Source: a virus. Taken from it: DNA of 23,151 nucleotides. Where the stretch lies: IMG/VR virus record IMGVR_UViG_3300047557_003583, positions 1 to 23,151 of that record, one strand, 5' to 3'. This document shows, in pieces, positions 3,820-22,615 of the stretch. The stretch's first letter is position 1. Each line of letters begins with the position of its first letter. The translations under genes and the position numbers were made by a program. Under the pieces are notes generated by a model. The model was not told the origin of the DNA. It worked only from the letters and a program-made list of their open reading frames with translations, and did not search any database.

Positions 3820-3895
3820 TGGTGCTTCCAGCAAGGATTCGAACCCGCAACCTACTGCTTACAGGGCAGTTGCACTACCGTTGTGCTATGGAAGC
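3820..3895 (-). tRNA. tRNA-Thr(TGT)
   Basis: 76 nt on the minus strand with encoded CCA. The acceptor is GCTTCCA/TGGAAGC. The anticodon arm is ACTGC, CCTGTAA, GCAGT, giving TGT. D- and T-arms are normal (GGTTCGAATCC). Confidence 0.95.
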
Positions 3896-3907
3896 ATTTT
3901 ATCTCTT

Positions 3908-3986
3908 TGGCTCCGGGTAAGGGAATCGAACCCTTCTATCCATTGATTAACAGTCAAGCCCATGCGCCTTGCTCGGGTTTCCCGGA
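3908..3986 (-). tRNA. tRNA-Asn(GTT)
   Basis: 79 nt on the minus strand ending G-CCA, as usual for Asn. The acceptor is TCCGGG/CCCGGA. The anticodon loop is CTGTTAA between TTGA and TCAA, giving GTT. The T-arm is GAAGGG, TTCGATT, CCCTT. The D-arm (CCCG/TGGG) has an 11-nt loop. Confidence 0.92.
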
Positions 3987-4169: not shown

Positions 4170-4199
4170 TTGATATGGCCAAGACTAAATATCTATACT
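4170..4199 (+). promoter_or_regulatory. Probable promoter of the prkA operon (TTGATA-18-TATACT)
   Basis: On the plus strand, TTGATA (4170-4175), an 18-bp spacer, then TATACT (4194-4199). It would start RNA about 12 nt before the prkA ATG, just ahead of the GAAGGA ribosome site at 4207-4212. It is divergent from the two minus-strand promoters. Confidence 0.5.
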
Positions 4200-4217: not shown

Positions 4218-6155
4218 ATGGCCACTATCAAATCCCTGTTCAAGAAGAACTTTGACCGCACCAGCTACACCACTATGACTCTTGACGAGTACCTAGAGCA
4301 GTGTAAATCCGATCCTCTAGCCTATGCCAGCGCCAGTGAGCGTATGGTCAGTGCTATTGGTGAACCCGAATTGATTGACACCAGCAAGGACTCAAGATTG
4401 AGCAGAATCTTTAGCAACAGAACCGTGCGCGTATACCCTGCGTTTCGCGAGTTCTATGGTATGGAAGACGCTATTGAGCGCATTGTCGGATACTTTCGTC
4501 ACAGTGCTCAAGGTTTGGAAGAGCGTAAGCAGATATTGTACTTGCTAGGCCCAGTTGGCGGTGGCAAGAGCAGTCTGGCCGAACGCTTGAAAGAACTGAT
4601 GGAGCAGTATCCAATCTATGTGCTGGCAACTGAAGATGGTACTATCAGTCCAGTGTTTGAAAGTCCGTTGGTTCTGTTTCCTGCTCGCGAATATGGTTCT
4701 GTGCTTGAGCGGGAATACGGCATCGCAGCACGATATCTAAACAGCATCATGAGTCCCTGGGCAGTCAAGCGATTGCGTGAGTACGATGGCGATCTGGACC
4801 GTTTTCGTGTAGTCAAGCTACAACCCAGTAAGTTAGAGCAGATCGCAGTGATGAAGACTGAACCAGGTGACGAGAATAATCAGGACATCAGCACGCTGGT
4901 TGGTAAAGTAGACATACGCAAACTTGAACGCTATAGTCAAAACGATGTTGACGCATACAGTTTCAGTGGTGGACTCAACCGTGCCAATCAGGGTATGCTT
5001 GAGTTCGTTGAGATGTTCAAGGCTCCTATCAAGGTTCTGCATCCACTGCTAACTGCCACGCAAGAGAACAACTATACTGGCACTGAAGCTATTGGTGCCA
5101 TACCGTTCACTGGCATTGTGTTGGCTCACAGCAACGAGAGCGAGTGGCAGACATTCAAGAACAACAAGAACAACGAGGCATTCTTGGATCGTATCTGCGT
5201 AATCAAGGTTCCATACTGTCTACGCACTGATGAAGAGCAGCTCATCTATGAGAAGATGATTCGCAGCAGCGGCCTGGATAGTGCTCCCTGTGCTCCGCAG
5301 ACCTTGGAAATGCTGGCGCAGTTCAGTGTTCTAACCAGATTGCGTGAACACGAGAACAGCACGCTATACAGCAAAATGCGTGTATACAATGGCGAAAACA
5401 TTCGCGAAACCGATCCAAAAGCCAAAAGCATACAGGAGTATCGTGATGTAGCTGGCGTGGATGAGGGTATGGACGGTATCAGTACTCGCTTTGCCTATAA
5501 AATCCTGAGCCAAACTTTCAACTTCACTCCAGAAGAGATAGCTGCTGATCCAGTTCACCTAATGTTTGTGCTGGAGAATGCTATCAAGCGTGAGCAGTTT
5601 GGAGAAGAGCGCGAGAGCAAGTACATAGAGTTCATCAAAGCCGAACTGGCTACTAGATATGCCGAGTTTCTAGGTAACGAGATACAGAAGGCATACTTGG
5701 AAAGCTACAGCGAATATGGACAGAACCTGTTCATGCAATATCTATCTTATGCCGATTCTTGGATTCAAGATATAGATTTCAAAGATCCCGACACTGGTCT
5801 TCTCATGGACAGAGCACTGTTAAATTCCGAGCTGGAAAAAATCGAGAAGCCAGCAGGAATCAGTAATCCAAAAGACTTTCGCAACGAAGTAGTAAATTTC
5901 TGTTTGAGGGCGAAAGCAAAGTCCGGAAAAGATGTTCAATGGACCAGTTATGCCATTTTACGAGATGTAATAGAGCGCAGGATGTTTTCGCAGGTAGAAG
6001 ATTTACTTCCAGTAATCAGTTTTGACGGCAAGAAAGACAAAGAAATGGAGAGAAAGCACAACGACTTCGTTGGTAGAATGACTGCATTAGGATATACCCC
6101 TCGTCAGACCCGAAGATTGTGTGAATGGTTCATGAGAATCAGAAAGAGCAATTAA
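4218..6155 (+). CDS. prkA: PrkA/YeaG-family serine protein kinase
   Basis: 645 residues, against 644 in E. coli YeaG as I remember it, and alignable along its whole length with no large gap. The N-terminal PrkA AAA domain carries a Walker A loop at 111-118 (GPVGGGKS). Characteristic PrkA blocks follow: MSPWAVKRL, TEPGDENNQDIS, FVEMFKAPIKVLHPLL, HSNESEW and NNKNNEAFLDR. The C-terminal kinase-like region has YLESYSEYGQN and EKIEKPAGISNPKDFRNE. In E. coli YeaG is a cytosolic kinase that acts with YeaH and YcgB in stationary phase and nitrogen starvation. The ATG is set by GAAGGA 6 nt upstream. It is first in a plus-strand operon with yeaH and spoVR. By eye, the last 110 or so codons use more TTA, AAA and AGA than the rest. 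The identity is secure; the role in a phage is inferred. Confidence 0.97.
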   Translation: MATIKSLFKKNFDRTSYTTMTLDEYLEQCKSDPLAYASASERMVSAIGEPELIDTSKDSRLSRIFSNRTVRVYPAFREFYGMEDAIERIVGYFRHSAQGLEERKQILYLLGPVGGGKSSLAERLKELMEQYPIYVLATEDGTISPVFESPLVLFPAREYGSVLEREYGIAARYLNSIMSPWAVKRLREYDGDLDRFRVVKLQPSKLEQIAVMKTEPGDENNQDISTLVGKVDIRKLERYSQNDVDAYSFSGGLNRANQGMLEFVEMFKAPIKVLHPLLTATQENNYTGTEAIGAIPFTGIVLAHSNESEWQTFKNNKNNEAFLDRICVIKVPYCLRTDEEQLIYEKMIRSSGLDSAPCAPQTLEMLAQFSVLTRLREHENSTLYSKMRVYNGENIRETDPKAKSIQEYRDVAGVDEGMDGISTRFAYKILSQTFNFTPEEIAADPVHLMFVLENAIKREQFGEERESKYIEFIKAELATRYAEFLGNEIQKAYLESYSEYGQNLFMQYLSYADSWIQDIDFKDPDTGLLMDRALLNSELEKIEKPAGISNPKDFRNEVVNFCLRAKAKSGKDVQWTSYAILRDVIERRMFSQVEDLLPVISFDGKKDKEMERKHNDFVGRMTALGYTPRQTRRLCEWFMRIRKSN

Positions 6156-6158
6156 ATA

Positions 6159-6866
6159 ATGAGAACTGGTCATTTATATAAAATAGTGAGAAAAAGTACC
6201 GGAGAATATTATTACGGCATTCACAAGGGTTTATGTTTTGATGGATATTGGGGGAGTGGTATAATAATTCGTGATTATATCAAAACACACGGCACAACCG
6301 ATTTAGAATACAATGTATTAGTTATTGGACCATATGATTATATCATTGATATTGAATCTAAAATAGTCACGGAAACAGAAGTACTAAATGAACAATGCTG
6401 GAATTTAAAGACTGGAGGATATCGTGGTATTCCAGGAGAAAAAACTAGAGCATTAATAAGTGCATCCGGAAAAGGAAGAAAATATTCATCCGAAAGAACA
6501 GAAAAAATACAAAAATCCAGAGAGAGCAAGAAGGAAGAAATATATAAAAAGGTATCAGAATCAAATCTAGGGAAAATTAGAACTCCAGAACAATGTAAAA
6601 GAATTTCAGACATGAAAAAAGAAAAAATGTCGCACGAAACAAAAAACAAACTTCGTCTATCAAAGCTAGGAACAAAGAACCCCAGTTGGAAAGGATATAT
6701 AAAAACTCCAGACGGATATTTCACAAACACAATGAGTGCGGCAAAATATTATAACATGACCAATTCCAACATAGGAAAAAGATGCAGAAGTAATAATCCT
6801 TTATTTAAAGATTGGGAAAGAGTTCAAATAATTCCCGATGATGCTATTATTTTGGATATTATATGA
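6159..6866 (+). CDS. GIY-YIG-type homing endonuclease inserted between prkA and yeaH
   Basis: 235 residues. The N-terminal domain is GIY-YIG-like (LYKIV at 6-10, EYYYGIHKG at 16-24, DGYWGSG at 28-34). The glutamate expected to hold the metal may be in the TETEVLNEQCWNL stretch (about 70-82). The middle contains NUMOD3-like DNA-binding units (GRKYSSERTEKIQKS, SNLGKIRTPEQ and LGTKNPSWKG). The C-terminus is a helix-turn-helix-like NUMOD unit (MSAAKYYNMTNSNIGKRC). It starts 3 nt after the prkA stop and its TGA overlaps the yeaH ATG (ATGA). The gene is much more AT-rich than both neighbours. It is a mobile gene that keeps the operon running by translational coupling. Confidence 0.85.
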   Translation: MRTGHLYKIVRKSTGEYYYGIHKGLCFDGYWGSGIIIRDYIKTHGTTDLEYNVLVIGPYDYIIDIESKIVTETEVLNEQCWNLKTGGYRGIPGEKTRALISASGKGRKYSSERTEKIQKSRESKKEEIYKKVSESNLGKIRTPEQCKRISDMKKEKMSHETKNKLRLSKLGTKNPSWKGYIKTPDGYFTNTMSAAKYYNMTNSNIGKRCRSNNPLFKDWERVQIIPDDAIILDII

Positions 6867-8143
6867 GCAACATCATTGACAGACGATTGAACCCACGAGA
6901 CAAAAGTCTAAAGAATCGTCAGAAGTTCATACAGCGCAGTCGCGAGCAAATCAAGCGCGTGGTCAAGGAGACTATTGACAAGGGGAATATTGCTGACATT
7001 GAAGACGGCAAAGTTCGCGTAAAAGTCAAGGGCATTGATGAACCCGAGTTTGGTATTGATCCAAAGTCAGGCAACAAGAAGTACATACTGCCTGGCAATG
7101 ACAAGTACCTAGTGGGCGACACTGAAAAGAAGCAGCAGGAGCAATCTGGCAGTGGCGGCAGCGAGGGTGGTCTAGGAATCAGTGAAGATGACTTTGAGTT
7201 CATACTCAATCAGGACGAGTTTCTAGACTTTATCTTTGACGATCTGGAGCTACCAGATTTGCTAAAGAAGCAGATGCGCGATGTTACCAAAGTATTACCA
7301 CGGCGAGCAGGATACACCACCAGTGGCAATCCAAGTCAGCTAGATGTTATACGCAGCCTCAAGAATAGTATGGGTCGTCGTATAGGTTTACATCGCCCAA
7401 GCAATGAAGAACTAGAGCAATTGGAGCAGCAACTATTGTCGGCTCAACGGGCTCAGGATCACGAGCAGATATTGCTGATAGAGGAACAGATAGCAGAACT
7501 TCGTCGTCGCCAGATTACTATTCCCTGGATGGATCCAGTTGATGTCAGATACAGAAACTTTGTCCCACAGCCTCAACCAATGACACAGGCGGTTATGTTC
7601 TGCGTGATGGATGTCAGTGCCAGTATGGGCGAGAACGAGAAGAATCTTGCCAAGCGTTTCTTCTTCTTTCTACATATGTTCCTGCGCCGCAAGTACAGCA
7701 AGGTGGACATCGTGTTCATCAGACATCATGAAAGTGCGCTGGAAACTGACGAGCACGATTTCTTCTACAGCAAGGAAAGTGGCGGTACTGTTGTTAGCAG
7801 TGCTATCAATCTTACCAGAGAAATCATCACCAAGCGATACAATGTTGATGACTGGAACATCTATGTGGCACAGGCAAGTGACGGTGATAACAACAGCGGC
7901 GACAACAATCCACTGATAGGGGCAATGCATCAGTTGCTACCGCTTGTGCAGTATTTTGCCTATGTTGAAATCAAGAACCAATGGTACACCTATAACTTCA
8001 GCAACAATAGCTCACTGTGGAAATCATACACACTGCTGAACAACGAAGTCAACAAAATCAACATGCGTAGAGCAGAAGAGATGTCCGATATCTGGAAGGT
8101 ATTCAAGGAGCTATTCTCCAAGGAGCGAACCAAGCATGGCTAA
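6863..8143 (+). CDS. yeaH: YeaH-family VWA-domain protein (DUF444)
   Basis: 426 residues, against 427 remembered for E. coli YeaH. The family N-terminus is IIDRRLNPRDKSLKNRQKF. A Gly/Ser-rich linker (about 96-106) is followed by FEFILNQDEFLDFIFDDLEL and an RAGYTTSGNPSQL block. The C-terminal von Willebrand A domain has the MIDAS metal motif D-V-S-A-S at 250-254, with T309 and ASDGD (338-342) as the other contact sites. YeaH is a partner of the PrkA/YeaG kinase in proteobacteria. The ATG overlaps the stop of the inserted endonuclease and lacks a good ribosome site, so it relies on coupling. Its stop lies 8 nt inside spoVR. The identity is secure. Confidence 0.96.
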   Translation: MSNIIDRRLNPRDKSLKNRQKFIQRSREQIKRVVKETIDKGNIADIEDGKVRVKVKGIDEPEFGIDPKSGNKKYILPGNDKYLVGDTEKKQQEQSGSGGSEGGLGISEDDFEFILNQDEFLDFIFDDLELPDLLKKQMRDVTKVLPRRAGYTTSGNPSQLDVIRSLKNSMGRRIGLHRPSNEELEQLEQQLLSAQRAQDHEQILLIEEQIAELRRRQITIPWMDPVDVRYRNFVPQPQPMTQAVMFCVMDVSASMGENEKNLAKRFFFFLHMFLRRKYSKVDIVFIRHHESALETDEHDFFYSKESGGTVVSSAINLTREIITKRYNVDDWNIYVAQASDGDNNSGDNNPLIGAMHQLLPLVQYFAYVEIKNQWYTYNFSNNSSLWKSYTLLNNEVNKINMRRAEEMSDIWKVFKELFSKERTKHG

Positions 8144-9587
8144 ACTACTATACAACACCAATGACTGGACCTTTGATAGAATCCGCAGTGCTGATCGTGC
8201 AATAGCAGATATTGCACTAGGTGAACTGAAGTTGGATATCTATCCAAATCAGATAGAAATCATTGGCAGTGACCAGATGTTGGACGCATACAGCAGTCAT
8301 GGACTACCCTTGATGTACAATCACTGGAGCTTTGGTAAGCACTATATACAGCAGACATATAGCTATAGAAAGGGCTATCAGGGTCTTGCATACGAAATCG
8401 TTATCAACAGCAATCCTTGCATTAGTTATCTAATGGAAGAGAACAGCATGACTATGCAAACATTGGTCATTGCACACGCTGCATACGGACACAATCACTT
8501 CTTCAAGAACAACTATCTGTTTCGTCAGTGGACAGATGCAGAAGGAATCATTGACTATCTGGCATTTGCCAAGAACTATATCAACAAGTGTGAAGATTCC
8601 TATGGTGTTGAAGCAGTGACCAAAACATTGGATGCCTGTCACGCAATCATGAACTATGGTGTTGATAGATATCGCAGACCAACCAAACCAAACAAGCGTC
8701 GTGAAGAAGAGCTACAAAAGCAGCGTAGCGAATATGTACAGCAGCAGGCCAATATACTCTGGAGCACTATACCATCCAAGGAATCCGACAAGACAGAAAC
8801 AGTGACCAAGTTCCCAGAGGAGCCACAAGAGAACATTATGTACTTCATTGAGAAGCACAGTCCAAGTCTTGAAAGTTGGCAGCGCGAGTTAGTCAGAATA
8901 GTCAGAAAAATCAGTCAGTACTTCTATCCACAGCGTCAAACCAAACTTATGAATGAGGGTTGGGCCAGTTTTGTTCACCACTATGTGATGAACAGACTAT
9001 GGGAACAGGGTAGGATCAGTGATGGTCATTACTTGGAGTTCATACACAGTCATAGCGGTGTGCTAACTCAACTTCCATACAATCACAAGTACTACAATGG
9101 GTTCAATCCATATGCACTAGGCTTTGATATGTTCACTGATATCCGTCGTATATGCACCGAACCAACTGATGAAGATTGTGAATATTTCCCAGACCTAGTA
9201 GGTAAGAACTGGATTGATGTTTGTCTGGATGCAGTGCAAAACTATCGCGACGAAAGCTTTGTGGTTCAATTCTTGAGTCCATCACTAATGCGTCGTTGGA
9301 AACTGTTTCAGATAGATGATAATCACGAAGATGATTTTGTCGTTATTAGCAACATACAAGACGCTGCTGGCTATCGTGAAATCAGACAAACATTGAGCAA
9401 GCAATACAGCATCAACAAGTGGCAACCCAAAATTGAAATCATTGATGCCAATCTAAAAGGTGGCAGAGAACTGACATTGCTGTATACTCCTACCAATGAT
9501 GTCAAACTCAACAATCAGACCAACACAGTGTTGCGATTCATCGAATCACTATGGGGTTATCCAGTCAAGATTGAGACTGCCAAATAA
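8136..9587 (+). CDS. spoVR: SpoVR/YcgB-family protein
   Basis: 483 residues, within the family range (about 470-510). The diagnostic conserved blocks are present: HWSFGKHY (63-70), YEIVINSNPCISYLMEEN (86-103), AHAAYGHNHFFKNNYLF (113-129), TDAEGIIDYL, and a CHAIMNYGVDRYRRP stretch. The C-terminal half keeps MNEGWASFVHHYVMNRL and NPYALGFDMFTDIRRI. SpoVR is needed for proper spore coat/cortex formation in Bacillus. In proteobacteria the relative YcgB is linked to YeaG and YeaH. The exact activity is not settled. The ATG at 8136 has AAGGAG about 11 nt upstream, inside yeaH, and the genes overlap by 8 nt. This completes the kinase / VWA / SpoVR set in normal order. Confidence 0.97.
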   Translation: MAKLLYNTNDWTFDRIRSADRAIADIALGELKLDIYPNQIEIIGSDQMLDAYSSHGLPLMYNHWSFGKHYIQQTYSYRKGYQGLAYEIVINSNPCISYLMEENSMTMQTLVIAHAAYGHNHFFKNNYLFRQWTDAEGIIDYLAFAKNYINKCEDSYGVEAVTKTLDACHAIMNYGVDRYRRPTKPNKRREEELQKQRSEYVQQQANILWSTIPSKESDKTETVTKFPEEPQENIMYFIEKHSPSLESWQRELVRIVRKISQYFYPQRQTKLMNEGWASFVHHYVMNRLWEQGRISDGHYLEFIHSHSGVLTQLPYNHKYYNGFNPYALGFDMFTDIRRICTEPTDEDCEYFPDLVGKNWIDVCLDAVQNYRDESFVVQFLSPSLMRRWKLFQIDDNHEDDFVVISNIQDAAGYREIRQTLSKQYSINKWQPKIEIIDANLKGGRELTLLYTPTNDVKLNNQTNTVLRFIESLWGYPVKIETAK

Positions 9588-9657: not shown

Positions 9658-9933
9658 ATGTCAAGCATTCTACTACGACAGTACATAGACTTACTCAAGG
9701 AATCAAATCTAGAAGAAAAATGGGCCGCTGGTGGCAAGGTCAATCCAGAAGAACGCGGCAAGTATGCTGGCAAGACAAAAGCCGAGCTACTAAAATCTTA
9801 CAATGCACTGAAGAAAAGTGGTCCACACAGTGTGGGCAGCCCAGAGTATGGACGCATGCGTGAACTGGCTTTTGCTATCAGAGCAAAGTCTGGCTGGGGC
9901 AAAGTCAAAGAAGACGGTTACGCTGACGAGTAA
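9658..9933 (+). CDS. Small basic conserved-type phage protein, unknown function
   Basis: 91 residues with a very strong ribosome site (AGGAGG at 9643-9648, 9 nt before the ATG). It begins with a helix (ILLRQYIDLLKESNLEEKW), then GKYAGKTKAELLKSYNALKK. It ends with a Gly/Ser-rich turn and a basic helix (ELAFAIRAKSGWGK). It has no membrane segment or cysteine. The gap of 70 nt after spoVR contains a weak hairpin (GAGAC/GTCTC) but no clear promoter, so it is probably read with the prkA operon. The tail pattern reminds me of short proteins seen in other phages, but no named family is claimed. Confidence 0.8.
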   Translation: MSSILLRQYIDLLKESNLEEKWAAGGKVNPEERGKYAGKTKAELLKSYNALKKSGPHSVGSPEYGRMRELAFAIRAKSGWGKVKEDGYADE

Positions 9934-10282: not shown

Positions 10283-10357
10283 TGGTGCTGATGGCGAGGA
10301 TTGAACTCGCGGCCTCATTCTTACCAAGAATGCGATCTACCACTGATCTACATCAGC
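10283..10357 (-). tRNA. tRNA-Thr(GGT)
   Basis: 75 nt on the minus strand with encoded CCA. The acceptor is GCTGATG/CATCAGC. The D-arm is GATC/GATC. The anticodon arm is CATTC, TTGGTAA, GAATG, giving GGT. The T-arm contains GTTCAATCC. Confidence 0.93.
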
Positions 10358-10373
10358 CGAATTGTTTTGTTAA

Positions 10374-10449
10374 TGGTCTCGCACACAGGCTTCGAACCTG
10401 CACCTTCCTGACCCCAAATCAGGTGGACTTCCAATTATCCCAATGCGAG
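10374..10449 (-). tRNA. tRNA-Pro(TGG)
   Basis: 76 nt on the minus strand with encoded CCA. The acceptor is CTCGCAT/GTGCGAG. The anticodon arm is CCTGA, TTTGGGG, TCAGG, giving TGG. The T-arm is GCAGG, TTCGAAG, CCTGT. Confidence 0.95.
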
Positions 10450-10454
10450 TAAAA

Positions 10455-10549
10455 TGGTGGAAGACGGAGGAGTCGAACCCCATCCCATTCTTCATGAGAA
10501 CCCAGTTTTCAAGGCTGGTCGGCCCACCAACGGACCTGCATCATCTTCC
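10455..10549 (-). tRNA. tRNA-Ser(TGA)
   Basis: 95 nt on the minus strand with encoded CCA and the long variable arm of class II tRNAs (TTCT/AGAA). The acceptor is GGAAGAT/GTCTTCC. The anticodon loop is CTTGAAA, giving TGA. It is the first tRNA after the promoter at 10580-10608. Confidence 0.93.
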
Positions 10550-11138: not shown

Positions 11139-11729
11139 TCAAATTTTTTGATGTTTTTTGGATTTACTATAGAAAATATGATTTCCTATACTAAAAACTG
11201 GATTATATGGCCAGTTTGGTTTTACGCTAGTGTTATGAAAGAACAACACATTGCTGGGAATAATATCACTCCAGGCATCTTCTGTCAATACTTTATGAGC
11301 AATCTCTTTAGCCAATTTATATTGAGGATTGTTCTCATTTGGTCTAGATTTACCCTGGCATACCCAACTGAACTGACAGCTACGAACTGATTCGTCACTA
11401 TCAGGAACAGACACAATATGTGACTGATAGATGACCTTACAGGGATTACTACCGTATCCATGCAATATTCTATTCATTACCACTCTGGCAACAGCAATCT
11501 GTCCCATGTAGGGTTCATTAGCTGCCTCGTGATAGATATTTGCTGCCAAGCAGTTTAGATGCTCAATGTTTGGCAAGCTTACTGCATTTGATACACTATG
11601 TACTGCGTTAGTTGCTAATGCAACTGATTCATTTAGTTTGAATGTGTTATTAACATATGCAGCAAGAAAAACGGTCGCAAATAGCAACACAGCCAACAAT
11701 TTAGTTGGCACAGTCATGCGTCTGTGCAT
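11139..11729 (-). CDS. Cell-wall hydrolase (SleB/CwlJ, Hydrolase_2 family), probable endolysin
   Basis: 196 residues from ATG 11729 with AAGGAG 7 nt upstream. An N-terminal hydrophobic segment at about 8-26 (PTKLLAVLLFATVFLAAYV) could be a signal-anchor-release sequence or membrane anchor. After a linker comes the SleB-type catalytic domain. It contains LAANIYHEAANEP (about 61-73; the glutamate at 68 is the expected catalytic residue), GQIAVARVVMNRI, CQFSWVC (about 117-123) and LFFHN. The family cleaves peptidoglycan as a lytic transglycosylase or related enzyme. The position directly downstream of virion genes fits a lysis enzyme or virion-associated murein hydrolase. It is separated from the large gene upstream by 16 nt. 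Confidence 0.88.
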   Translation of the reverse strand: MHRRMTVPTKLLAVLLFATVFLAAYVNNTFKLNESVALATNAVHSVSNAVSLPNIEHLNCLAANIYHEAANEPYMGQIAVARVVMNRILHGYGSNPCKVIYQSHIVSVPDSDESVRSCQFSWVCQGKSRPNENNPQYKLAKEIAHKVLTEDAWSDIIPSNVLFFHNTSVKPNWPYNPVFSIGNHIFYSKSKKHQKI

Positions 11730-14899: not shown

Positions 14900-15202
14900 T
14901 TACCCCAATACTATTCGCTTACTAGCAGTTGTGATTCCAGTGGTAGCCTCAATATACTTGATTCTAATCTGATCTGCGGTTTCACAATACATAGTAATTG
15001 CTCTAGTATTTAGCGTTACCGATTTGTCTTTTTCGGCAGTAAACATACTGGGCATCAAACCAATACCCTGTGGGCCTGGTGCTACGCTTAATGGCTCACT
15101 TAAAGTGATAGTATCAGCATCTACAGCAATAACTTTGCTGATAACTTCTTCTCCACTGGATAATTTCAGTGTGTATACTTCATTCAATTCAATGTTTTTC
15201 AT
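14900..15202 (-). CDS. Small conserved phage protein, probably Sm-like beta barrel
   Basis: 100 residues. The N-terminus VYTLKLSSGEEVISKVIAVD followed by TITLSEPLSVAPGPQGIGLMP has the alternating strands of an Sm-like barrel. The end has a TEATTG-like turn (EATTGITTASKRIVLG). I recall proteins with the GEEI..KV and GPQG pattern in T4-like cyanophages and relatives, of unknown role. Its ATG overlaps the glutaredoxin stop (ATGA). The neighbours are glutaredoxin on one side and a tail-tip gene on the other. No catalytic motif is visible. Confidence 0.75.
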   Translation of the reverse strand: MKNIELNEVYTLKLSSGEEVISKVIAVDADTITLSEPLSVAPGPQGIGLMPSMFTAEKDKSVTLNTRAITMYCETADQIRIKYIEATTGITTASKRIVLG

Positions 15203-15423
15203 TTTAGTCTCGCTACAAGTTCTTGATATCCGCCCACATATTCATCGTCTAGAAAGATTTGTGGTACTGATCTGGCGGTGGGTACTGCCAGTAGCAACTG
15301 TTCTTTGGTCCAGTCACTAGTGTTAATATTACGCTCTTCATACTGTATGCCCTTTAGTTTAAGCAATGATTTTGCCTGTTCGCAATAGGGACAATTATTC
15401 TTGCTCCATACAATTGCATGCAT
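15199..15423 (-). CDS. Glutaredoxin
   Basis: 74 residues from ATG 15423. The frame is open further upstream to 15477, but AGGAG stands 6 nt before 15423, and the longer form would overlap the gene before. The thioredoxin fold is clear: active site CPYC at residues 11-14, the cis-proline strand SVPQIFLDD, and VGGYQEL near the end, which binds glutathione. It reduces disulfides with glutathione, for example in ribonucleotide reductase. Phage T4 and its relatives carry similar short glutaredoxins (T4 nrdC). It ends in an ATGA overlap with the gene after. Confidence 0.92.
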   Translation of the reverse strand: MHAIVWSKNNCPYCEQAKSLLKLKGIQYEERNINTSDWTKEQLLLAVPTARSVPQIFLDDEYVGGYQELVARLK

Positions 15424-15436
15424 GGTAATCTCCTCT

Positions 15437-15892
15437 TCAAATATTACTAGTATCGTATGTTTTATTGAAGATGTCAACTTTTACTACACCATAATCGCCT
15501 GGGCCGTGTCTGACAATATAGTCTTTTCCAGCGTTATATTGTAGATCTCCCCAACTTGCGTGAACAACACCATCATGATCAGCCAGTTTAGCTAGCTTGA
15601 TTATCTTCTTTGGAGTGCAGCGACCATTACCAAGATCATCTTTTAGATTGTGAAAAGTTTCTGGACTAATTGGATATTGCTCGCCTTTTGGTCCAGTCAT
15701 TATATAGTACCCAGATTCATACTTAACTGGGCCCTCTAATGTTTGAACTACTCCTGGCTCTAGAGCTACATCATAACGCTCTACTGCTGGAACTTTATAG
15801 GTTTCAAAAGAGCCAGTCTTGAACCAAGCATCATTAATTTGATTAGCTGATTCGTTCACAATGTTTAGTAATTTTCTGAATGCTGAAGTCAT
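15437..15892 (-). CDS. PGDYG-family phage protein with an internal duplication
   Basis: 151 residues, ATG at 15892 with AAGGAA about 7 nt upstream, 1 nt after the epimerase stop. Residues 54-82 (VKYESGYYIMTG, GEQYPISPETF) and 115-146 (LQYNAGKDYIVRHG, PGDYGVVKVDIFNKTY) look like two copies of the same unit. Each is a Y..G.Y/DYI strand, then G(E/D).., then F....Y. The second carries the PGDYG signature of a small family often found in phages, function unknown. The ORF overlaps a spurious extension of glutaredoxin but not its real start. The N-terminus is helical. Confidence 0.7.
   Translation of the reverse strand: MTSAFRKLLNIVNESANQINDAWFKTGSFETYKVPAVERYDVALEPGVVQTLEGPVKYESGYYIMTGPKGEQYPISPETFHNLKDDLGNGRCTPKKIIKLAKLADHDGVVHASWGDLQYNAGKDYIVRHGPGDYGVVKVDIFNKTYDTSNI
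15449..15477 (-). promoter_or_regulatory. Possible promoter for glutaredoxin (TTGACA-17-GATACT)
   Basis: On the minus strand, TTGACA (15477-15472), 17 bp, GATACT (15454-15449), inside the end of the PGDYG gene. It would start RNA about 20 nt before the glutaredoxin ATG. The bases are also coding, so it may be chance. Confidence 0.3.
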
Positions 15893-15893
15893 G

Positions 15894-16808
15894 TTATATT
15901 CCTTTTAAAATTCCAGCGATATAATCTTCAATTTTAACTGACGGGTTCCATCCAAAAGTCTGTCTTATCTTGGTATTGTTTGCAAGAGTTATCCTGGCTT
16001 CTCCCTGACGAGGAGGTATGAATTTGATGTCATCAGATATCATTTTAGCCAATTCTAAAATAGAATGATTGCATCCAGTTCCCACATTATAAACTTGTCC
16101 ATATGGATTTTCATCTACACTAAATTGCTTGAGCATTGCTGCAATGTTTGCTGAAACTACATCTGACACATGCACAAAATCTCTGCGTTGCTCACCATCC
16201 CCAGTAATAGTCAATGAATTTCCAGACAGATGTTGTCTTAAAAATAATCCGACCACTGGGGCATATGACCCTTTTACTGGTTCGCGAGGTCCATATACAT
16301 TGAAATATCTGAATACAATTGTAGGAAGCTTGAATAGATCGCTGTACATTTTGCACAGCTTTTCTCCTGCTATTTTACTAACACTATAGGGATTTAGACA
16401 ATCATCTGGCATGTCTTCTGATTGTGGGAATATCTTGTTCAATCCATATCCACTGGAAGTTGAACTGTACATTACTCGTTTAACACCAGACTCTCTACTA
16501 CACTGTAGTACAGTCGCAGTTCCCTGCATATTGGTTCTAACTGCCAATAGAGGATTATCTATGGTCTGCTGAATTCGCGACTCGGCAGCACAATGAAAAA
16601 CATAATCTGCGTTATCGTACAATGCTCTAGTACTAGAATAGTCTGCGATGTCTAATTTGTGATATGTAGCAGCACTATTATAATAGTACTTGTCATTGAC
16701 TTCTGCTGATTCATTGTCAATTACTGTGACATTGTGACCAAGCTCTATCAACTTGTCAACAATATGTGAACCTATGAATCCTGCACCACCTGTTACTATT
16801 GATTTCAT
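15894..16808 (-). CDS. NAD-dependent sugar-nucleotide epimerase/dehydratase (extended SDR)
   Basis: 304 residues. The Rossmann motif GGAGFIG is at 7-13, with D31 after the second strand as NAD-type. The catalytic pair is YSVSK (Y141, K145) with S116/S117 upstream in YSSTSSGYG. RYFNVYGPREP, RRDFVHVSD and VYNVGTG are typical of UDP-glucose 4-epimerase and related UDP-sugar enzymes. The likely job is to interconvert a UDP- or other NDP-sugar for the glycosyltransferases of the same operon. Its ATG overlaps the stop of the GDPD-like gene. Substrate cannot be set from sequence alone. Confidence 0.9.
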   Translation of the reverse strand: MKSIVTGGAGFIGSHIVDKLIELGHNVTVIDNESAEVNDKYYYNSAATYHKLDIADYSSTRALYDNADYVFHCAAESRIQQTIDNPLLAVRTNMQGTATVLQCSRESGVKRVMYSSTSSGYGLNKIFPQSEDMPDDCLNPYSVSKIAGEKLCKMYSDLFKLPTIVFRYFNVYGPREPVKGSYAPVVGLFLRQHLSGNSLTITGDGEQRRDFVHVSDVVSANIAAMLKQFSVDENPYGQVYNVGTGCNHSILELAKMISDDIKFIPPRQGEARITLANNTKIRQTFGWNPSVKIEDYIAGILKGI

Positions 16809-17245
16809 AATGAATATTTAAATGGATAATCAGTACATATTCCGAATATGTTCTCTAGTTCAATTGGCTCGTAATCGCATTTTTCGGGCATGACTGCTAT
16901 TGATTTTTTAGAAATCAAGGGTTTTCCCGGATAAGTCCAAATAAAATTACTAGAAGTTAATGTTACAGTATCTTCTTCGTGCCAAAAATATTCTAAATCA
17001 GTTGATAACAATTTATCAAGAGCCTCTAGATTTTTGCAATGAATCCAAAGATTTGGTGTTCTTAAAAATTCATAGTCTATATTATATGTTGGATTATCAT
17101 GACCTAGCCACCATTTATCATTGATATACCATATATCTATTTCACAGTGAAATCCAATATTAAGTGTCTTTAATATAGTTTCTGGCCTATTCTCTAAATC
17201 AGAATCAGGCCCCTCTAGTAAACCACGATGTGCAATTATTATCAT
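16805..17245 (-). CDS. GDPD-like phosphodiesterase-fold protein
   Basis: 146 residues. It begins IIIAHRG (H6, R7), then ENRPE and GFHCEIDIWY (E35, D37), and WWLGHD (H49). These correspond to the metal and catalytic residues of glycerophosphodiester phosphodiesterases. It is about half the usual GDPD length and has no C-terminal part of the barrel. IHCKNLEAL and FWHEEDTVTLTSSNFIW follow. Short proteins of this kind occur in surface polysaccharide clusters. It may act on a phosphodiester in the glycan or its lipid carrier; that is inference. ATGA overlaps at both ends link it to its neighbours. Confidence 0.75.
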   Translation of the reverse strand: MIIIAHRGLLEGPDSDLENRPETILKTLNIGFHCEIDIWYINDKWWLGHDNPTYNIDYEFLRTPNLWIHCKNLEALDKLLSTDLEYFWHEEDTVTLTSSNFIWTYPGKPLISKKSIAVMPEKCDYEPIELENIFGICTDYPFKYSL

Positions 17246-17940
17246 ACTTTAATATTATTCTTTCTCAACACATGATTAACAATTTTTTTCTCGGAAATAG
17301 TCAATTCAGAATGTTTTAGTCCGTTGAAAAGTAATCTATGAGGAGGTTCATGATGACTATCTGAACATATTGGTTTATAAAATTCATTGCTTATAAAATT
17401 GCAAAAGTTAGTAAACTTATTTCTGTGCATGCCGAATATTAAATCATTAGGGAAAACATTCCCATTACTAATAATCGCGATAGACTCGGAATCATCTATT
17501 TCAAATTTATTCAGAATCAAGTCACATCTTGTTTTAATAACGTAATCGTATTTAATCTGATTATCTTTCTCATATTTTTCGAGTAATTCATATGCTTGAA
17601 GCAGTTTTCTATATTGCAGCACCGAGTGTGGATGATTCTTAAAATTTGGATGAAGTTGATTATGTAATACATTATCATAATGAGCACGAACATCAGATAT
17701 AGACTCAATGACATAATTTTTCAAATTGAAATCTTTAAACAAATCTAATATTTCGTCGTTAGATAGAAAGCAATCACTCGAATCGTGAATACTATTCTGA
17801 ACTGCGGGATGATAACCATATCTTAAGTCATAAGTAGACAAAAAAATATCATAATCTAGATTTGAAAAAACAGATCTGAAATTTTCTTTGCATTGATCCC
17901 AAGTTCTTATATTTCCTATTAATAATATTGCTGTTTTCAT
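17242..17940 (-). CDS. Probable glycosyltransferase-like protein of a surface-glycan cluster
   Basis: 232 residues. The start (KTAILLIGNIRTWDQCKENF) and the middle (IKYDYVIKTRCDLILNKFEI, about 130-150) follow the GT-A-like layout found in several poorly studied O-antigen proteins. The TRCD stretch stands where a DxD sugar-nucleotide motif is expected. No membrane segment is seen. It is coupled by ATGA to the methyltransferase before and the GDPD-like gene after. The call rests on context and a weak motif; acceptor and donor are unknown. Confidence 0.6.
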   Translation of the reverse strand: MKTAILLIGNIRTWDQCKENFRSVFSNLDYDIFLSTYDLRYGYHPAVQNSIHDSSDCFLSNDEILDLFKDFNLKNYVIESISDVRAHYDNVLHNQLHPNFKNHPHSVLQYRKLLQAYELLEKYEKDNQIKYDYVIKTRCDLILNKFEIDDSESIAIISNGNVFPNDLIFGMHRNKFTNFCNFISNEFYKPICSDSHHEPPHRLLFNGLKHSELTISEKKIVNHVLRKNNIKV

Positions 17941-18638
17941 TTTACAATGTAACCAGTGGGAGTCTTCACTTTTGTAGGAATCAATTTTAGTTCAAATTCT
18001 TTTACAAATCTATCAACTCCATTTGATTCACTCCATCCATGATATCCGTACTCATCAAAAACAACTATGCCACCATCTACTATTTTATCCCACATATTTA
18101 CTAAAGTATAATAAGTCGGATCACCTAAATCTAAATCCAAATATAATATGCTTATTCTTAATCCAGGTTTATCTTCAAGATATGACTTACTAGTATGCTG
18201 AATATCTCCCTCTATCAAATCGAATCTATCATTAGAAAATCCAGAATTAAGTATTTTAGTTTTGATATTATCTTTGGATAATTCATTAATTTCCAAATCT
18301 TTACATCTATCAAACACTTGTTGCATTAAATGTCTATCTACGTTATTACTCAAGTCATTGACGAATGTAGGATTAAAAAAATCAAAACCTAGAACTTTTT
18401 TAATACTGTTTGGCTCATTCATTTGCAATATCTTGAGCCATGTTAACATTCCAGAGCCTTTAAAAACACCACATTCAACGATATCACCGATTAAATGTTT
18501 AGTCATTTCATAGAACTTGATTCTACTGTACAACTTATTGAATACATTTCTATCTGTGCTAAAAATAAAATTATTGAAATTATCGTATATGCTTTGATTA
18601 TCATTGATATTTGAATTAGTGTTGTATAAATTAATCAT
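17937..18638 (-). CDS. SAM-dependent methyltransferase, TylF/MycF type
   Basis: 233 residues. The SAM loop is GDIVECGVFKGSGMLTWL (about 51-67). The metal and catalytic region is ILYLDLDLGDPTYY (about 164-177), then GGIVVFDEYGYHGW with the second metal site (D-E). The family O-methylates sugars of macrolides and surface glycans using a divalent cation. Here it probably caps or modifies a sugar. AAGGAT lies about 11 nt upstream of the ATG at 18638. It follows the hypothetical gene by 14 nt and overlaps the next gene by 4. Confidence 0.85.
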   Translation of the reverse strand: MINLYNTNSNINDNQSIYDNFNNFIFSTDRNVFNKLYSRIKFYEMTKHLIGDIVECGVFKGSGMLTWLKILQMNEPNSIKKVLGFDFFNPTFVNDLSNNVDRHLMQQVFDRCKDLEINELSKDNIKTKILNSGFSNDRFDLIEGDIQHTSKSYLEDKPGLRISILYLDLDLGDPTYYTLVNMWDKIVDGGIVVFDEYGYHGWSESNGVDRFVKEFELKLIPTKVKTPTGYIVK

Positions 18639-18652
18639 TGAATTAATAATCC

Positions 18653-19456
18653 TTAATTATTGAACCATTGACGAACCGGGCCTTCACGATCTGTTTGTCT
18701 ATTTTCAGATATGATGTCATGATATTTATGTACTACAAAAGAGCGATCTGTTTCTATTAAATAGTCTATTAATTTTTGAAACGATACTCCTCCCCAACTT
18801 TGTTGAGAAATATTTATCAATGACATTAATTCTATGGACAAAAAATGACAAGAAAAATCTCTTACTACATAACAAGAAAAAAATTTAATTTTAATATCAT
18901 TGATAGTTATATCTGTTCTAAGATAAAAATCGGTATTAGTGCTCTGATTTTTATCTTCCACAAAAAAGGTAATATCATCAGATTTAATAAATTGTTCTCT
19001 TTTAATATATTGCAATATATCTTCATCAGTGACTCTTTTTTTTGCATTTATAAATGGGGCAACAAAATATATTAAATTATTAACGGAAATTCTATTTAGA
19101 ATATCATCAAAATAATTCACCGATAACAAGCTATCAGATTTAACTAATAAAACTCTATCGTGCTTGTCATAGTGTTTTTGACAATAGTTTTTTATTGCGA
19201 GAATATCTCCACCCAATGTTTTGGAAGTATTCTCATCATAATCAAATACTTCTACAGCATCAAAAAATCTATTTAAGGAATATTTTTTAAACAATGTCAA
19301 TAAAGATTGATTTGAAAGTTCAGAACTATGAGAATTATATATGTAAAGTTTATTAAACTTTTTATCACAATTCTGAATTGAAAAACTGTGAAATGTCAAT
19401 TCAGCATTATAATGATTTAAAGTTTTATGTGTTATAAAAAAACATATATTTTTCAT
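18653..19456 (-). CDS. Hypothetical protein of the glycan operon, glycosyltransferase-like
   Basis: 267 residues, very AT-rich. The first part (NICFFITHKTLNHYNAELTF, then KLYIYNSHS) and DRVLLVKSDSLLSVNYFDDIL (about 98-118) look like a GT-A-type nucleotide-binding half, with SD.L in place of a DxD. It has no signal peptide or membrane segment. It starts 2 nt after the stop of the HAD/nucleotidyltransferase gene (TAATAATG). The base composition is like its neighbours in this cluster and lower in GC than the structural genes. The function is inferred from position only. Confidence 0.5.
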   Translation of the reverse strand: MKNICFFITHKTLNHYNAELTFHSFSIQNCDKKFNKLYIYNSHSSELSNQSLLTLFKKYSLNRFFDAVEVFDYDENTSKTLGGDILAIKNYCQKHYDKHDRVLLVKSDSLLSVNYFDDILNRISVNNLIYFVAPFINAKKRVTDEDILQYIKREQFIKSDDITFFVEDKNQSTNTDFYLRTDITINDIKIKFFSCYVVRDFSCHFLSIELMSLINISQQSWGGVSFQKLIDYLIETDRSFVVHKYHDIISENRQTDREGPVRQWFNN

Positions 19457-19458
19457 TA

Positions 19459-20841
19459 TTAGTCCTTATAATTACTCAAGAAATAGTTTAAATCTTCTGG
19501 AGTTCCTATTCCCCACATTTTGTCAATATTCTTCACACGAATTTTTTTACCGTCAGCTATTGCTTGATTGAATACTGGACAGACGTAAAACTCATTATTA
19601 GTTCGAATATTTTTAGAAATCATCTGTTCAGCATATTTAACATAGTCAGAACCATGTCTCCAATAATAAATTCCAACAGTTGCTTGATCTGAAATCACTT
19701 TCTTTTCAGCAACTTCAGAAACAAAACCATTATCATCTAATTTGGCATATGACCACTTTGGATGAGTGGCATTGAATGTAAGAATTCCGCCGTCAATTGA
19801 ATCCGCAGAAAATGCGTACATGCATTCATTTGAATTCCATTCAACATATTGATCTGAGTTTGCCATTACCAATGAGGCATCATTGTCAATATATTCTTTT
19901 GCCAGCAATGTAGTACATGCCGCTCCTTCTGTTAGTCCATCTACCTGAACAATTTTACAATTTGGAGCTATCAAATTAAGCAAATATTTCAAATTGTATT
20001 TTTCATAATGTTCTCGCTGAACTAAAAAGATATAATTTGCTTCTATGTTAAGATTCTCAACAACAACCTGAATCATTGGCTTTCCATTGACCTCAATGAG
20101 CGGCTTAGGAAAAGTATATCCAGCAGCAGAAAAACGAGATCCTGCGCCAGCCATTGGTATCAAGACATTCATCTTACTATCTCTCCATGGAAGAGATTTT
20201 TTACTTGTACCTTCAATGGTATTCATAATGTCGTATATCCTTTGTAACATTTGTTCTGAATTGACTTCTTTTGCATTTTCTACCGCAAGTAAATGAGCGC
20301 CAGAATCTAGTGCTCCCTGTCTTCCGATATGACTGTCTTCAATAATAATAGTATTTTTAGGCAATGCATTAAGAGCAATCATGCATTTCCAATACATTTC
20401 TGGATATGGCTTGGTGCGAGATACATCTTCATTGCTGACAAAATAATCAACATCATCCATTACACCAATACTCAATAGTGATAGTTTCACTGTCTCTCGT
20501 ATAGAATTTGAAGCCACTGCAATTTTATAACCACGCGATTTTATTTTCCTAAAAATCGACTGTAGCAAATATTCTTTATTAAATCCACGAACAAGATTAA
20601 ATGTTGCTTGTTGTTTATCTTTCCATATCTGATCATATGTTGAGATTGGAAGACCTTTTTCTTCCGTGAGCATTTTAAGCTTTTTGGTCGTGTTTAGACC
20701 GTCATATTTGCTGAGATGCTCTTCTCTGCTAATTACAAATTGTTCACCGACTTTACGAAGTGCAGCATTTAGAGCGTCATAGTGCAACTCACGAGAGTCT
20801 AACAATACTCCATCTAAATCGAAAATTATTAGTTTATTCAT
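19459..20841 (-). CDS. Fusion of a HAD phosphatase/phosphomutase and a sugar-1-phosphate nucleotidyltransferase
   Basis: 460 residues with two domains. Residues 1-210 are a HAD-IA hydrolase of the beta-phosphoglucomutase type: DLDGVLLDS (D8, D10), AVASNS (S111), RTKPYPEMY (K144), IIIEDSHIGRQGALDSGA (E168, D169). Residues 224-460 are a nucleotidyltransferase: MNVLIPMAGAGSRF (224-237), FPKPLIEVNGKPM (K246), then ANSDQYVEW as the metal site. The reaction would be removing or moving a phosphate on a sugar and then making an NDP-sugar. The substrate is unknown. The gene overlaps the HtrL-type gene by 4 nt. Internal ATGs exist, but the fused frame is open throughout, so I treat it as one protein. 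Confidence 0.85.
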   Translation of the reverse strand: MNKLIIFDLDGVLLDSRELHYDALNAALRKVGEQFVISREEHLSKYDGLNTTKKLKMLTEEKGLPISTYDQIWKDKQQATFNLVRGFNKEYLLQSIFRKIKSRGYKIAVASNSIRETVKLSLLSIGVMDDVDYFVSNEDVSRTKPYPEMYWKCMIALNALPKNTIIIEDSHIGRQGALDSGAHLLAVENAKEVNSEQMLQRIYDIMNTIEGTSKKSLPWRDSKMNVLIPMAGAGSRFSAAGYTFPKPLIEVNGKPMIQVVVENLNIEANYIFLVQREHYEKYNLKYLLNLIAPNCKIVQVDGLTEGAACTTLLAKEYIDNDASLVMANSDQYVEWNSNECMYAFSADSIDGGILTFNATHPKWSYAKLDDNGFVSEVAEKKVISDQATVGIYYWRHGSDYVKYAEQMISKNIRTNNEFYVCPVFNQAIADGKKIRVKNIDKMWGIGTPEDLNYFLSNYKD

Positions 20842-21656
20842 GGCGTGTCATTGAATTTCTGAAATAACACAAAAGGGTCTTGCCCTAATTGATGATCCGG
20901 AATCTTATGAGATTCAAACATATCTAATTCTGAGTGTTTAGACATTAATAATAAGCCCTGATCATCGTCCACTATATTTTGATTATTAAGCTCAATCCAG
21001 CTTCTTTCCATCAAACTGTCTAACAATGGCCACATTTTTTTATGTGCTACAATTTGAGCACCTAAGACATGAACGTCGTTATTAATTACAATGTCAATAA
21101 AAGATCTATTTGGATTTTTATCTTTGTATTCAAAAAGATGAATTTTATTAGGATCAAAATTATATGACCAGATTTTTGATCTAGGAACTTTGTTAGAAGT
21201 TCTCATATAGCCAAAATCTATCCACGCAATCATATCATTTTGTGGAAGATTCTTTTTAATTGCCTCATTGACAAATCTTGCTTTTAAATTTGTCACCAAG
21301 ACATAATATGAGTTCCAATACTCAGGATTTTTAATTTGACTTTGAGGAATTAATCTAATAAATTCTTCAGAATTTTGAATTCTACTAATAGTTTGCAAAA
21401 GACTTGCATATTCACTGTCTAAATCCATACAAATAATATTAGTTTTAAACAGTCTGTCTTTTGTTATTTGTTTTATTCGATCATAATGTTCATTATTGAT
21501 TATAACAGTAATATCGTTTTCCAATTGACATAAACGACTAAAACAATCCATATAGGTATCTACTGTTCTAGCTAGATAATGAGGATATCCCTTATCTTGA
21601 GTCCAATTTGCTCTACCTATATCAAAAAATGCTGTTACAATTGAAATTTTATTCAT
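20838..21656 (-). CDS. HtrL/YibB (WlaTC)-family putative glycosyltransferase
   Basis: 272 residues. The start ISIVTAFFDIGRANWTQD matches the opening of the HtrL/YibB family, and YLARTVDTYMDCFSRLCQ follows as in that family. KARFVNEAIKKN and the MIAWIDFGYMR metal-like patch (about 142-152) are also typical. YibB is found in O-antigen and capsule loci and is thought to act on sugars, but its activity is not proven. It starts 8 nt after the GT4 gene. No membrane segment is seen. Confidence 0.8.
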   Translation of the reverse strand: MNKISIVTAFFDIGRANWTQDKGYPHYLARTVDTYMDCFSRLCQLENDITVIINNEHYDRIKQITKDRLFKTNIICMDLDSEYASLLQTISRIQNSEEFIRLIPQSQIKNPEYWNSYYVLVTNLKARFVNEAIKKNLPQNDMIAWIDFGYMRTSNKVPRSKIWSYNFDPNKIHLFEYKDKNPNRSFIDIVINNDVHVLGAQIVAHKKMWPLLDSLMERSWIELNNQNIVDDDQGLLLMSKHSELDMFESHKIPDHQLGQDPFVLFQKFNDTP

Positions 21657-21664
21657 GATTATTT

Positions 21665-22615
21665 CTACTTTAAAAAAACCTCTTCAAATTTCTGTATTAC
21701 ATTTTCTGGAGAAAATTCTTTCACACGATCACTCCAGTTTTGTTTGATACTATTTATGTTTCTCACAATGTGATCTAATTGATTAATAGAGCTATACAAG
21801 GTGCCAGAGTTTTCTAACATGACTGTATGATTCTGATCTATACCTAGAGCACAGGCAATCACTGGCTTGTTATGAAACAAAAACTCAGCAATTGCTAATC
21901 CAAATGATTCCCCTCTTGCTCTAGCGTGGATCATAGCATCACATGTAGCAATAAAATTGCTCTTGATTTGCAAATCATGAATCTCATTGATGAATTTTAC
22001 ATTTGGATGTTCGCAGAATTTTTCAGTACCCACAAACAAAAACACATAGTCATTAGTACTGTTCACCAGATTGACGATGTATTGTTTAACTTCTGGAATG
22101 TCAAAAGTACTGTAACCACCTATTCTACCAAATACGATTTGGTCATCACTGATATTCAGAAACTTTCTATAATTATCAGTTGACTGCGGAAGAGTCACAA
22201 TGTGAGGGACAAAAGGTATAGTTCCGTTTGACATTTTATCTGATAGCCATTTAGAAATGTAAGCATATACATCTCCATAGGGTTGATAATATTGAAACAC
22301 ACTGTGTATAACATTTTTGCAGACACTCGGGAGTGGTTCTTTATTTCCAGATGTTATGAAATATGCTACATCTACTTTCAATTCTTCTAGCTTTTTATCA
22401 AGTGCTCCTCGTTCATATGAGCAAACATTGTATTCTTTACTCAATGAGTCAATGATACTAGGAACATTGCCCATATCAGGATCATTAGGATAGCTAGAAC
22501 AATATGTTATTACTGGATCTAGTCCTCGTAAATTTCTCAGATACTTACAATAATCAGTGACGGCCACCGTAGTTCCGCGATAGTTTAAAGTATTTGTATG
22601 TAAAAGAATCTTCAT
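21665..22615 (-). CDS. GT4-like (GT-B fold) glycosyltransferase
   Basis: 316 residues. The N-terminal half opens with MKILLHTNTLNYRGTTVAV, the usual nucleotide-loop start of GT-B enzymes. The C-terminal half has IVFGRIGGYS, FVGTEK and HARARGESFGLAIAEFLFHN (about 225-246), an E-x7-E donor motif. It ends with a FSPENVIQKFEEVF helix. It would move a sugar from an NDP-sugar to a glycan or other acceptor. It is shorter than many GT4 enzymes (about 370). The ATG overlaps the stop of the gene before (ATGA). Confidence 0.85.
   Translation of the reverse strand: MKILLHTNTLNYRGTTVAVTDYCKYLRNLRGLDPVITYCSSYPNDPDMGNVPSIIDSLSKEYNVCSYERGALDKKLEELKVDVAYFITSGNKEPLPSVCKNVIHSVFQYYQPYGDVYAYISKWLSDKMSNGTIPFVPHIVTLPQSTDNYRKFLNISDDQIVFGRIGGYSTFDIPEVKQYIVNLVNSTNDYVFLFVGTEKFCEHPNVKFINEIHDLQIKSNFIATCDAMIHARARGESFGLAIAEFLFHNKPVIACALGIDQNHTVMLENSGTLYSSINQLDHIVRNINSIKQNWSDRVKEFSPENVIQKFEEVFLK

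Follow-up and report, generated by a model that had tools for sequence, protein, structure and literature searches.

We found that a virus record of 23,151 bases from IMG/VR (IMGVR_UViG_3300047557_003583; hereafter the window, meaning the whole stretch of DNA analysed) carries a complete prkA-yeaH-spoVR module, whose products belong to the bacterial YeaG/PrkA, YeaH and YcgB/SpoVR families. The three genes are intact, retain the residues known to matter in YeaG and recur, mostly in the same order, on many viral genomes, where they have co-evolved under purifying selection. By analogy with their bacterial counterparts, we tentatively read the trio as a working, virus-owned PrkA-YeaH-SpoVR machine which would reset the physiology of the infected cell in large phages, a plausible reading that we hold with reserve. 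As the bacterial operon with its three proteins is known already, and single copies have been annotated in phages, the system is not categorically new; it is a viral variant with its own evolutionary history.

The trio locus and its three proteins

The features of the window that concern the trio are the following:

4218..6155, plus strand: prkA (YeaG family), 645 amino acids; Pfam, PHROG
6159..6866, plus strand: free-standing homing endonuclease gene; PHROG 314, E-value (E) 2.8e-23
6863..8143, plus strand: yeaH/DUF444, von Willebrand A (VWA) protein with a metal-ion-dependent adhesion site (MIDAS), 426 amino acids; Pfam
8136..9587, plus strand: spoVR (YcgB family), 483 amino acids; Pfam
4170..4199, plus strand: possible sigma70-type promoter for the trio genes, TTGATA-18-TATACT, matching the consensus at 10 of 12 positions
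3820..3986, minus strand: left pair of transfer RNA (tRNA) genes (Thr, Asn) bordering the trio island; ARAGORN
10283..10545, minus strand: three tRNA genes (Thr, Pro, Ser) on the right border of the trio island; ARAGORN
11139..11729, strand opposite to the trio: cell-wall hydrolase (Pfam Hydrolase_2)

All three open reading frames (ORFs) are complete and follow one another on the plus strand as prkA-yeaH-spoVR. They are tightly packed: the prkA stop lies 3 nt from the endonuclease gene, which overlaps yeaH by 4 nt, while yeaH overlaps spoVR by 8 nt. The unit forms a plus-strand island, the minus strand holding almost all of the window's other likely genes, and its GC content is 0.41–0.49 versus 0.36–0.40 in the left flank. 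The window proteins cover the Pfam models of PrkA, YeaH and SpoVR almost end to end, with matches far beyond chance; the module is thus complete, ordered and close to full length, as the preliminary description of this DNA had it, with the addition of the homing endonuclease gene between prkA and yeaH. The three proteins have PHROG families (22605, 19072 and 35217, all listed as unknown function), so that phage copies were already present in databases.

In PrkA, the AAA+ ATPase domain occupies residues 20–381 (PF08298, AAA_PrkA, E 1.4e-173) and the C-terminal domain residues 384–637 (PF06798, E 3e-69); the protein matches PHROG 22605 with E 1.3e-219. The Walker A motif GPVGGGKS starts at residue 111 and is conserved in phage and bacterial relatives, which bears out its earlier placement at 111–118. 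In an alignment with Enterobacter YeaG, window K117, R234 and K428 correspond to K116, R232 and K426. Each of these, i.e., K116 (Walker A), R232 and K426 (C-terminal domain), is needed for complementation by E. coli YeaG (PMC4664914). Structures of the PrkA family are available in PDB (9xip, 9xiq and 9xir). The label “kinase” is in doubt even with K428 kept in the window, given that neither kinase nor protease activity was detectable in purified PrkA of B. anthracis (PMC13001217).

YeaH matches PF04285 (DUF444) with E 2.7e-148. Its MIDAS residues D250-x-S252-x-S254, likewise found where they had been described (250–254), are invariant together with T309 and D340 in 27 phage and bacterial sequences, and its AlphaFold model resembles VWA folds in PDB, including the Rea1/MDN1 MIDAS domain (E about 1e-6). 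SpoVR, in turn, matches PF04293 (E 4.8e-165) and SpoVR_C, PF24755 (E 9.3e-15). Eight of its residues (H63, H114, G118, H119, H169, E274, H281 and H306) are invariant in 25 sequences, and the His/Glu set among them looks like an active centre, either catalytic or metal-binding. The SpoVR model is good (predicted local distance difference test, pLDDT, 82; predicted template modelling score, pTM, 0.81), but in PDB its best match was no better than E 0.3, and no solved relative was found by sequence; one viral protein was matched. Judged by these features, the window trio is apparently functional.

Further hints at the SpoVR centre come from apparent inteins, which interrupt viral SpoVR proteins at three conserved sites (window numbering):

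Y52/S53: L156:8086-10344 and L159:8122-10362; weak Intein_splicing matches
Q268/T269: L026:11225-14275 and L170:9001-12072; Pfam Intein_splicing E 1e-14 to 1e-16
After A277: L173:9001-11346; insertion starting with Cys, no Pfam intein match, the least certain case

The L156 and L159 inserts are about 250–260 amino acids long, start with Cys and end in HN before Ser or Cys; those of L026 and L170 measure about 520 amino acids, start with Cys and end in HN before Thr. Group I or II introns were considered as the cause of the interrupted genes and rejected, as the scanned loci gave no Rfam intron match. Since the insertions are in frame and have intein-like ends, we take them for inteins. Inteins favour the conserved cores of important proteins; hence, the sites in SpoVR point to the DAYS/HWSFGK and QxTK-MNEGWA blocks as its probable functional centre.

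Viral setting, distribution and history of the trio

No capsid or terminase gene was recognised within the 23-kb window, so its viral nature rests on context, namely the tRNA and endonuclease arrays, a PAAR-like gene and a conserved right-hand block. This block (glutaredoxin, phrog_527, PAAR, a 972-amino-acid structural-like protein and the cell-wall hydrolase) is kept in order, at 39–70% identity, in two terminase-bearing contigs of 153 and 239 kb (L180 and L181). ARAGORN places five tRNA genes left of the trio and three right of it. Of the flanks as first described, the tRNA and endonuclease-like genes on the left stand, while the virion label on the right comes down to a weak match with a baseplate/structural PHROG. 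Hallmark genes are found on other trio-bearing records: a Gp23 capsid gene on G025 (L119), G031, G032 and G034, and a terminase gene on G022, G025, G031, G011, G012, G014, G017 and others, as well as on L113. The 164-kb L119 record combines a T4-type Gp23 capsid (E 8e-144) and a terminase with PrkA and SpoVR proteins 77% and 69% identical to those of the window, and terminase genes accompany the trio on contigs of 415, 237 and 363 kb. The trio genes therefore lie on viral genomes with hallmark genes. Bacterial and phage trio flanks share almost nothing. One contig, L002, which may come from the same sample, equals the window over 13,089 bp at 99.99%, spanning the trio and both flanks. The preliminary description had allowed for a bacterial fragment or a chimeric assembly, a suspicion which the capsid and terminase genes of the trio contigs and their non-bacterial flanks contradict.

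Searches with the window PrkA and SpoVR returned 27 and 68 viral loci, respectively, and a SpoVR alignment search 223 confirmed stretches, of which 80 were taken further. Altogether, at least 166 IMG/VR loci hold all three genes. These represent at least 93 distinct versions at 99% YeaH identity, or 83 groups at 90% and 59 at 70%; thus, the “few phages” first credited with homologues proved a considerable underestimate. The prkA-yeaH-spoVR order is kept in 75 of the 78 viral loci newly added by the last scan, and yeaH and spoVR overlap in most trio-bearing viral loci. In most phages of the window clade, the prkA-yeaH gap measures −1 to 12 nt. We found no paper in the open-access literature that deals with the trio as a system of phages; a few phages already have annotations for single trio proteins.

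GenBank has members of the trio families in phage genomes of 635–642 kb and, very divergent and reordered, in Thermus phages (YS40_Isch and MN1, among others). The cultured Thermus phages YS40, YS40_Isch, MN1 and phiLo have VWA, SpoVR and PrkA genes adjacent or nearly so, with PrkA and SpoVR proteins 22–28% identical to those of the window and a partial VWA match of 31–37%. They differ from the window in the vwa-spoVR-prkA order and a short VWA protein, and YS40_Isch PrkA lacks an equivalent of K426, which the window retains as K428. The huge uncultured phages LR756502, LR745206 and LR756504 (about 635–642 kb) are closer (PrkA 58–61%, YeaH 39–42%, SpoVR 50–51% identity). Their records are unannotated and, unlike in the window, SpoVR of LR756502 is encoded about 245 kb from prkA-yeaH. 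In the Ralstonia jumbo phage RsoM2USA, ORF28 (SpoVR) and ORF30 (PrkA) are one ORF apart, with ORF29 between them; its description annotates them separately, SpoVR under replication and PrkA under signalling (PMC8504454). Enterobacter phage LAU1 and the IMG/VR locus L024 were rejected as phage copies, both being host yeaGH without spoVR beside prophage genes. The LAU1 record (L029, MN688132.1:1-3308) starts with yeaG-yeaH of the host chromosome, annotated there as if they belonged to the phage; such carry-over from a prophage flank can mislead database searches.

The bacterial counterparts, yeaGH and ycgB of E. coli and the prkA-yeaH-spoVR operons of Pseudomonadota, comprise the same three families at full length. 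Their gene order is that of the window in 75 of the 80 bacterial loci examined, while in E. coli ycgB lies elsewhere, apart from yeaGH. The key YeaG residues and the YeaH MIDAS are shared as well, and PrkA identity reaches 74% (Azospirillum). Unlike these operons, the window trio is carried by a large phage, groups mostly in separate viral clades, contains an endonuclease gene and has unrelated flanks, and the viral SpoVR relatives bear the apparent inteins described above.

The closest viral relative of window PrkA, that of L003, is 83% identical, as against at most 74% for bacterial ones. Quick maximum-likelihood trees, a check already proposed in the preliminary description, were built for PrkA (48 viral and 17 bacterial rows), SpoVR (51 and 48) and YeaH (55 and 46); the bacterial rows come mainly from the nearest Pseudomonadota, so that the root and the direction of transfer are not fixed. 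In these trees, phage versions fall mostly outside the sampled proteobacterial homologues, with only two (PrkA) or three (SpoVR, YeaH) changes between virus and bacterium labels, versus 15–33 in shuffles. The window group, about a dozen phages, recurs in all three trees and is sister to alphaproteobacteria in that of PrkA (Shimodaira–Hasegawa-like approximate likelihood ratio test, SH-aLRT, 95). A single viral clade for PrkA was rejected by the approximately unbiased (AU) test (p-AU 0.024), which implies at least one exchange with bacteria; such exchanges are few but real. Pairwise distances of the three proteins correlate across 58 phages (Mantel r 0.88–0.95, 0 of 999 permutations as high), which indicates that the genes travel together. 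The ratio of nonsynonymous to synonymous substitutions (dN/dS) is 0.01–0.16 in phage-phage pairs with unsaturated synonymous sites; the window itself is saturated, and the strong purifying selection that these values indicate applies to the viral family. Taken from the trees and distances, the trio appears to be an old viral lineage with few transfers rather than a recent capture.

Possible roles in the infected cell

How might such a trio serve a phage? In the scheme that we propose, PrkA would form an ATP-driven AAA+ ring acting as the motor. YeaH would be the adaptor, binding PrkA and holding clients via its metal-dependent MIDAS site. SpoVR would be the effector of this putative three-protein complex and probably an enzyme, with the invariant His/Glu set as its active or metal centre; its Bacillus homologue crosslinks RNA during sporulation (PMC12456014). 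By remodelling host targets, the trio would slow metabolism and keep the cell whole and resistant to stress during replication of the large genome, as YeaGH do in starving E. coli. The phage would benefit by bringing the infected cell wholly or partly into such a resting state.

It is on these E. coli data (PMC4664914, PMC10954441) that the initial suggestion of a phage keeping a starved host productive, or entering dormancy, would draw. There, YeaG and YeaH jointly put a “metabolic brake” on cells starved of nitrogen (PMC10954441), and YeaG of starved cells represses the transcription of mqsRA and dinJ-yafQ while favouring that of rpoS (PMC4664914). YcgB is co-conserved with YeaH and YeaG, and cells mutated in yeaH or ycgB are sensitive to antimicrobial peptides (PMC2375023). 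The common denominator would be an AAA+ motor, a MIDAS adaptor and an effector that stabilise the resting cell. In this regard, RsoM2USA, with its PrkA and SpoVR genes, has a latent period of 270 min (PMC8504454), a length to be expected if a phage retains its cells for long.

Several points weigh against such a role. The structural relatives L180 and L181 lack the trio, which makes it accessory cargo in the window lineage, not required in every host or habitat. It is for YeaGH that the brake phenotype has been described, and SpoVR/YcgB is tied to this phenotype only by co-conservation. The kinase activity of PrkA is itself disputed (PMC13001217). Finally, protease and phosphoesterase genes join the locus in some phages, suggesting another role. 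A bolder version, in which large phages own an ancient, self-contained quiescence machine that diversified with the viruses, recruited proteases and phosphatases in some of them and governs the metabolism of the infected cell, with SpoVR as an uncharacterised enzyme fold, strikes us as rather doubtful.

The proposed resetting of host physiology touches two open questions: how viruses with very large genomes keep the host alive and productive for hours, and how PrkA, YeaH and SpoVR act biochemically in bacteria. A compact viral trio, strongly selected in many phages and with inteins at the SpoVR core, makes both testable.

The joining genes bring in another, though unlikely, explanation, that of a protein-processing machine in which the AAA+ motor and the MIDAS adaptor remodel phage or host proteins and may feed a peptidase, with SpoVR as a co-enzyme. 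The genes concerned are:

L153:8466-8999; L177:10519-11181; L151:10508-11380; L152:8013-8807: ClpP-family, M17 aminopeptidase and calcineurin-like phosphoesterase genes

The ClpP-family gene of L153 (E 4.7e-33) is closely packed between yeaH and spoVR. In L177, a ClpP-like gene starts 49 nt after spoVR, and six further loci of the L150–L177 group have one near the trio; an M17 aminopeptidase gene starts 23 nt after spoVR in L151. A calcineurin-like phosphoesterase gene separates yeaH from spoVR in L151, L152, L155 and L177. Such neighbours hint at protein processing or phosphorylation turnover, and the Rea1/MDN1 MIDAS, which the YeaH model resembles, also works with an AAA+ motor. Yet, they occur in two phage lineages only, the window and most phages having no peptidase beside the trio, and protease activity was not seen for B. 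anthracis PrkA (PMC13001217). Moreover, ClpP is often present in large phages anyway.

The pairing of an AAA+ motor with a MIDAS protein recalls RavA-ViaA and Rea1/MDN1. An AAA+ gene does stand beside a VWA gene in the window, but a place of its product in the MoxR/RavA family is doubtful: PrkA matches the RavA profile only weakly (E 0.008) and constitutes its own AAA+ Pfam family with a C-terminal domain. The trio further differs from AAA+/VWA pairs by its third partner, SpoVR, for which no solved structural relative was found.

The YeaG effects on mqsRA, dinJ-yafQ and rpoS in starvation (PMC4664914) could also speak for a role against abortive infection, in which the trio would keep the infected cell from killing or freezing itself by blocking toxin-antitoxin systems or other shutdown responses to stress. 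We regard this as quite improbable, because the YeaG effect consists of mRNA changes in starved cells and the phage loci, for which a dedicated PADLOC scan was not made, showed no connection with defence systems.

Slightly less probable still is an envelope function, in which SpoVR and the motor strengthen or remodel peptidoglycan or the envelope, delaying lysis or protecting the infected cell. In Bacillus and Myxococcus, SpoVR/CbgA is involved in forming the spore cortex (cited in PMC12456014), the antimicrobial-peptide sensitivity of yeaH and ycgB mutants (PMC2375023) fits as well, and a wall hydrolase gene (Hydrolase_2) follows the trio at a distance of 1.0–1.7 kb in the window, L028, L018 and L023. 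However, wall hydrolases are ordinary phage lysis genes, the window copy is on the other strand and the Pfam scan revealed no wall-binding domain in the trio proteins.

That the trio is a recent host passenger or an assembly artefact devoid of viral function, as its GC content somewhat above that of the left flank and prophage records such as LAU1 might suggest, is highly improbable and already contradicted by the dN/dS values far below 1 and deep clades of the viral family, the capsid and terminase genes of sister contigs, the homing endonuclease gene inside the operon, the long L002 match and the almost unshared bacterial flanks.

Possible promoters, mobile genes and neighbours

The promoter candidate at 4170..4199 is followed by a Shine-Dalgarno-like AAGGA and the prkA ATG at 4218. 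It is weak, as 15% of shuffles score as high as its 10 of 12 positions. Matches of at least 10/12 occur upstream of prkA in 9 of 36 phage loci (3.2 expected); a conserved sigma70 promoter was dropped as a candidate, the window's own match not being unusual. A T4-type late promoter upstream of the trio was also rejected: there is no exact TATAAATA on the plus strand, and such matches are at chance level window-wide. A perfect sigma70 consensus (12/12, TTGACA-17-TATAAT) at 4066-4038 on the minus strand reads into the tRNA genes on the left and points away from the trio. Downstream, a 91-amino-acid ORF (9658-9933, plus strand), matching neither a Pfam nor a PHROG family, starts 70 nt after spoVR on the same strand and might also belong to the unit.

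The homing endonuclease gene of the window (6159-6866) is absent from the prkA-yeaH gap in most relatives. L122 has a related GIY-YIG-type gene (PHROG 314) in this gap, while between yeaH and spoVR we observed a GIY-YIG-type gene in L174 and an HNH gene in L118.

Several RNA genes lie near viral trios. Permuted transfer-messenger RNA (tmRNA) genes were detected at L122:12266-12481, L174:11308-11536 and in L021, which also has a GOLLD RNA (L021 tmRNA/GOLLD coordinates 15162-15545 and 16744-17211). In the 137-kb phage contig L003, more than 20 tRNA genes stand close together (L003:916-6877) directly ahead of the trio.

Genes resembling dimethylarginine dimethylaminohydrolase are located shortly upstream of prkA at L003:7176-7961, L005:2092-2934 and L113:3291-4088, the last matching Pfam DDAH. 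The cell-wall hydrolase genes of the relatives are at L028:14073-14648, L018:13677-14201 and L023:14301-14837. By eye, the AT-rich minus-strand region 15894-23151 of the window (25–38% GC) contains genes for a sugar epimerase, a fusion of a haloacid dehalogenase (HAD) and a nucleotidyltransferase, and methyltransferase-like and glycosyltransferase-like proteins, and it looks like a phage glycan-synthesis cassette.

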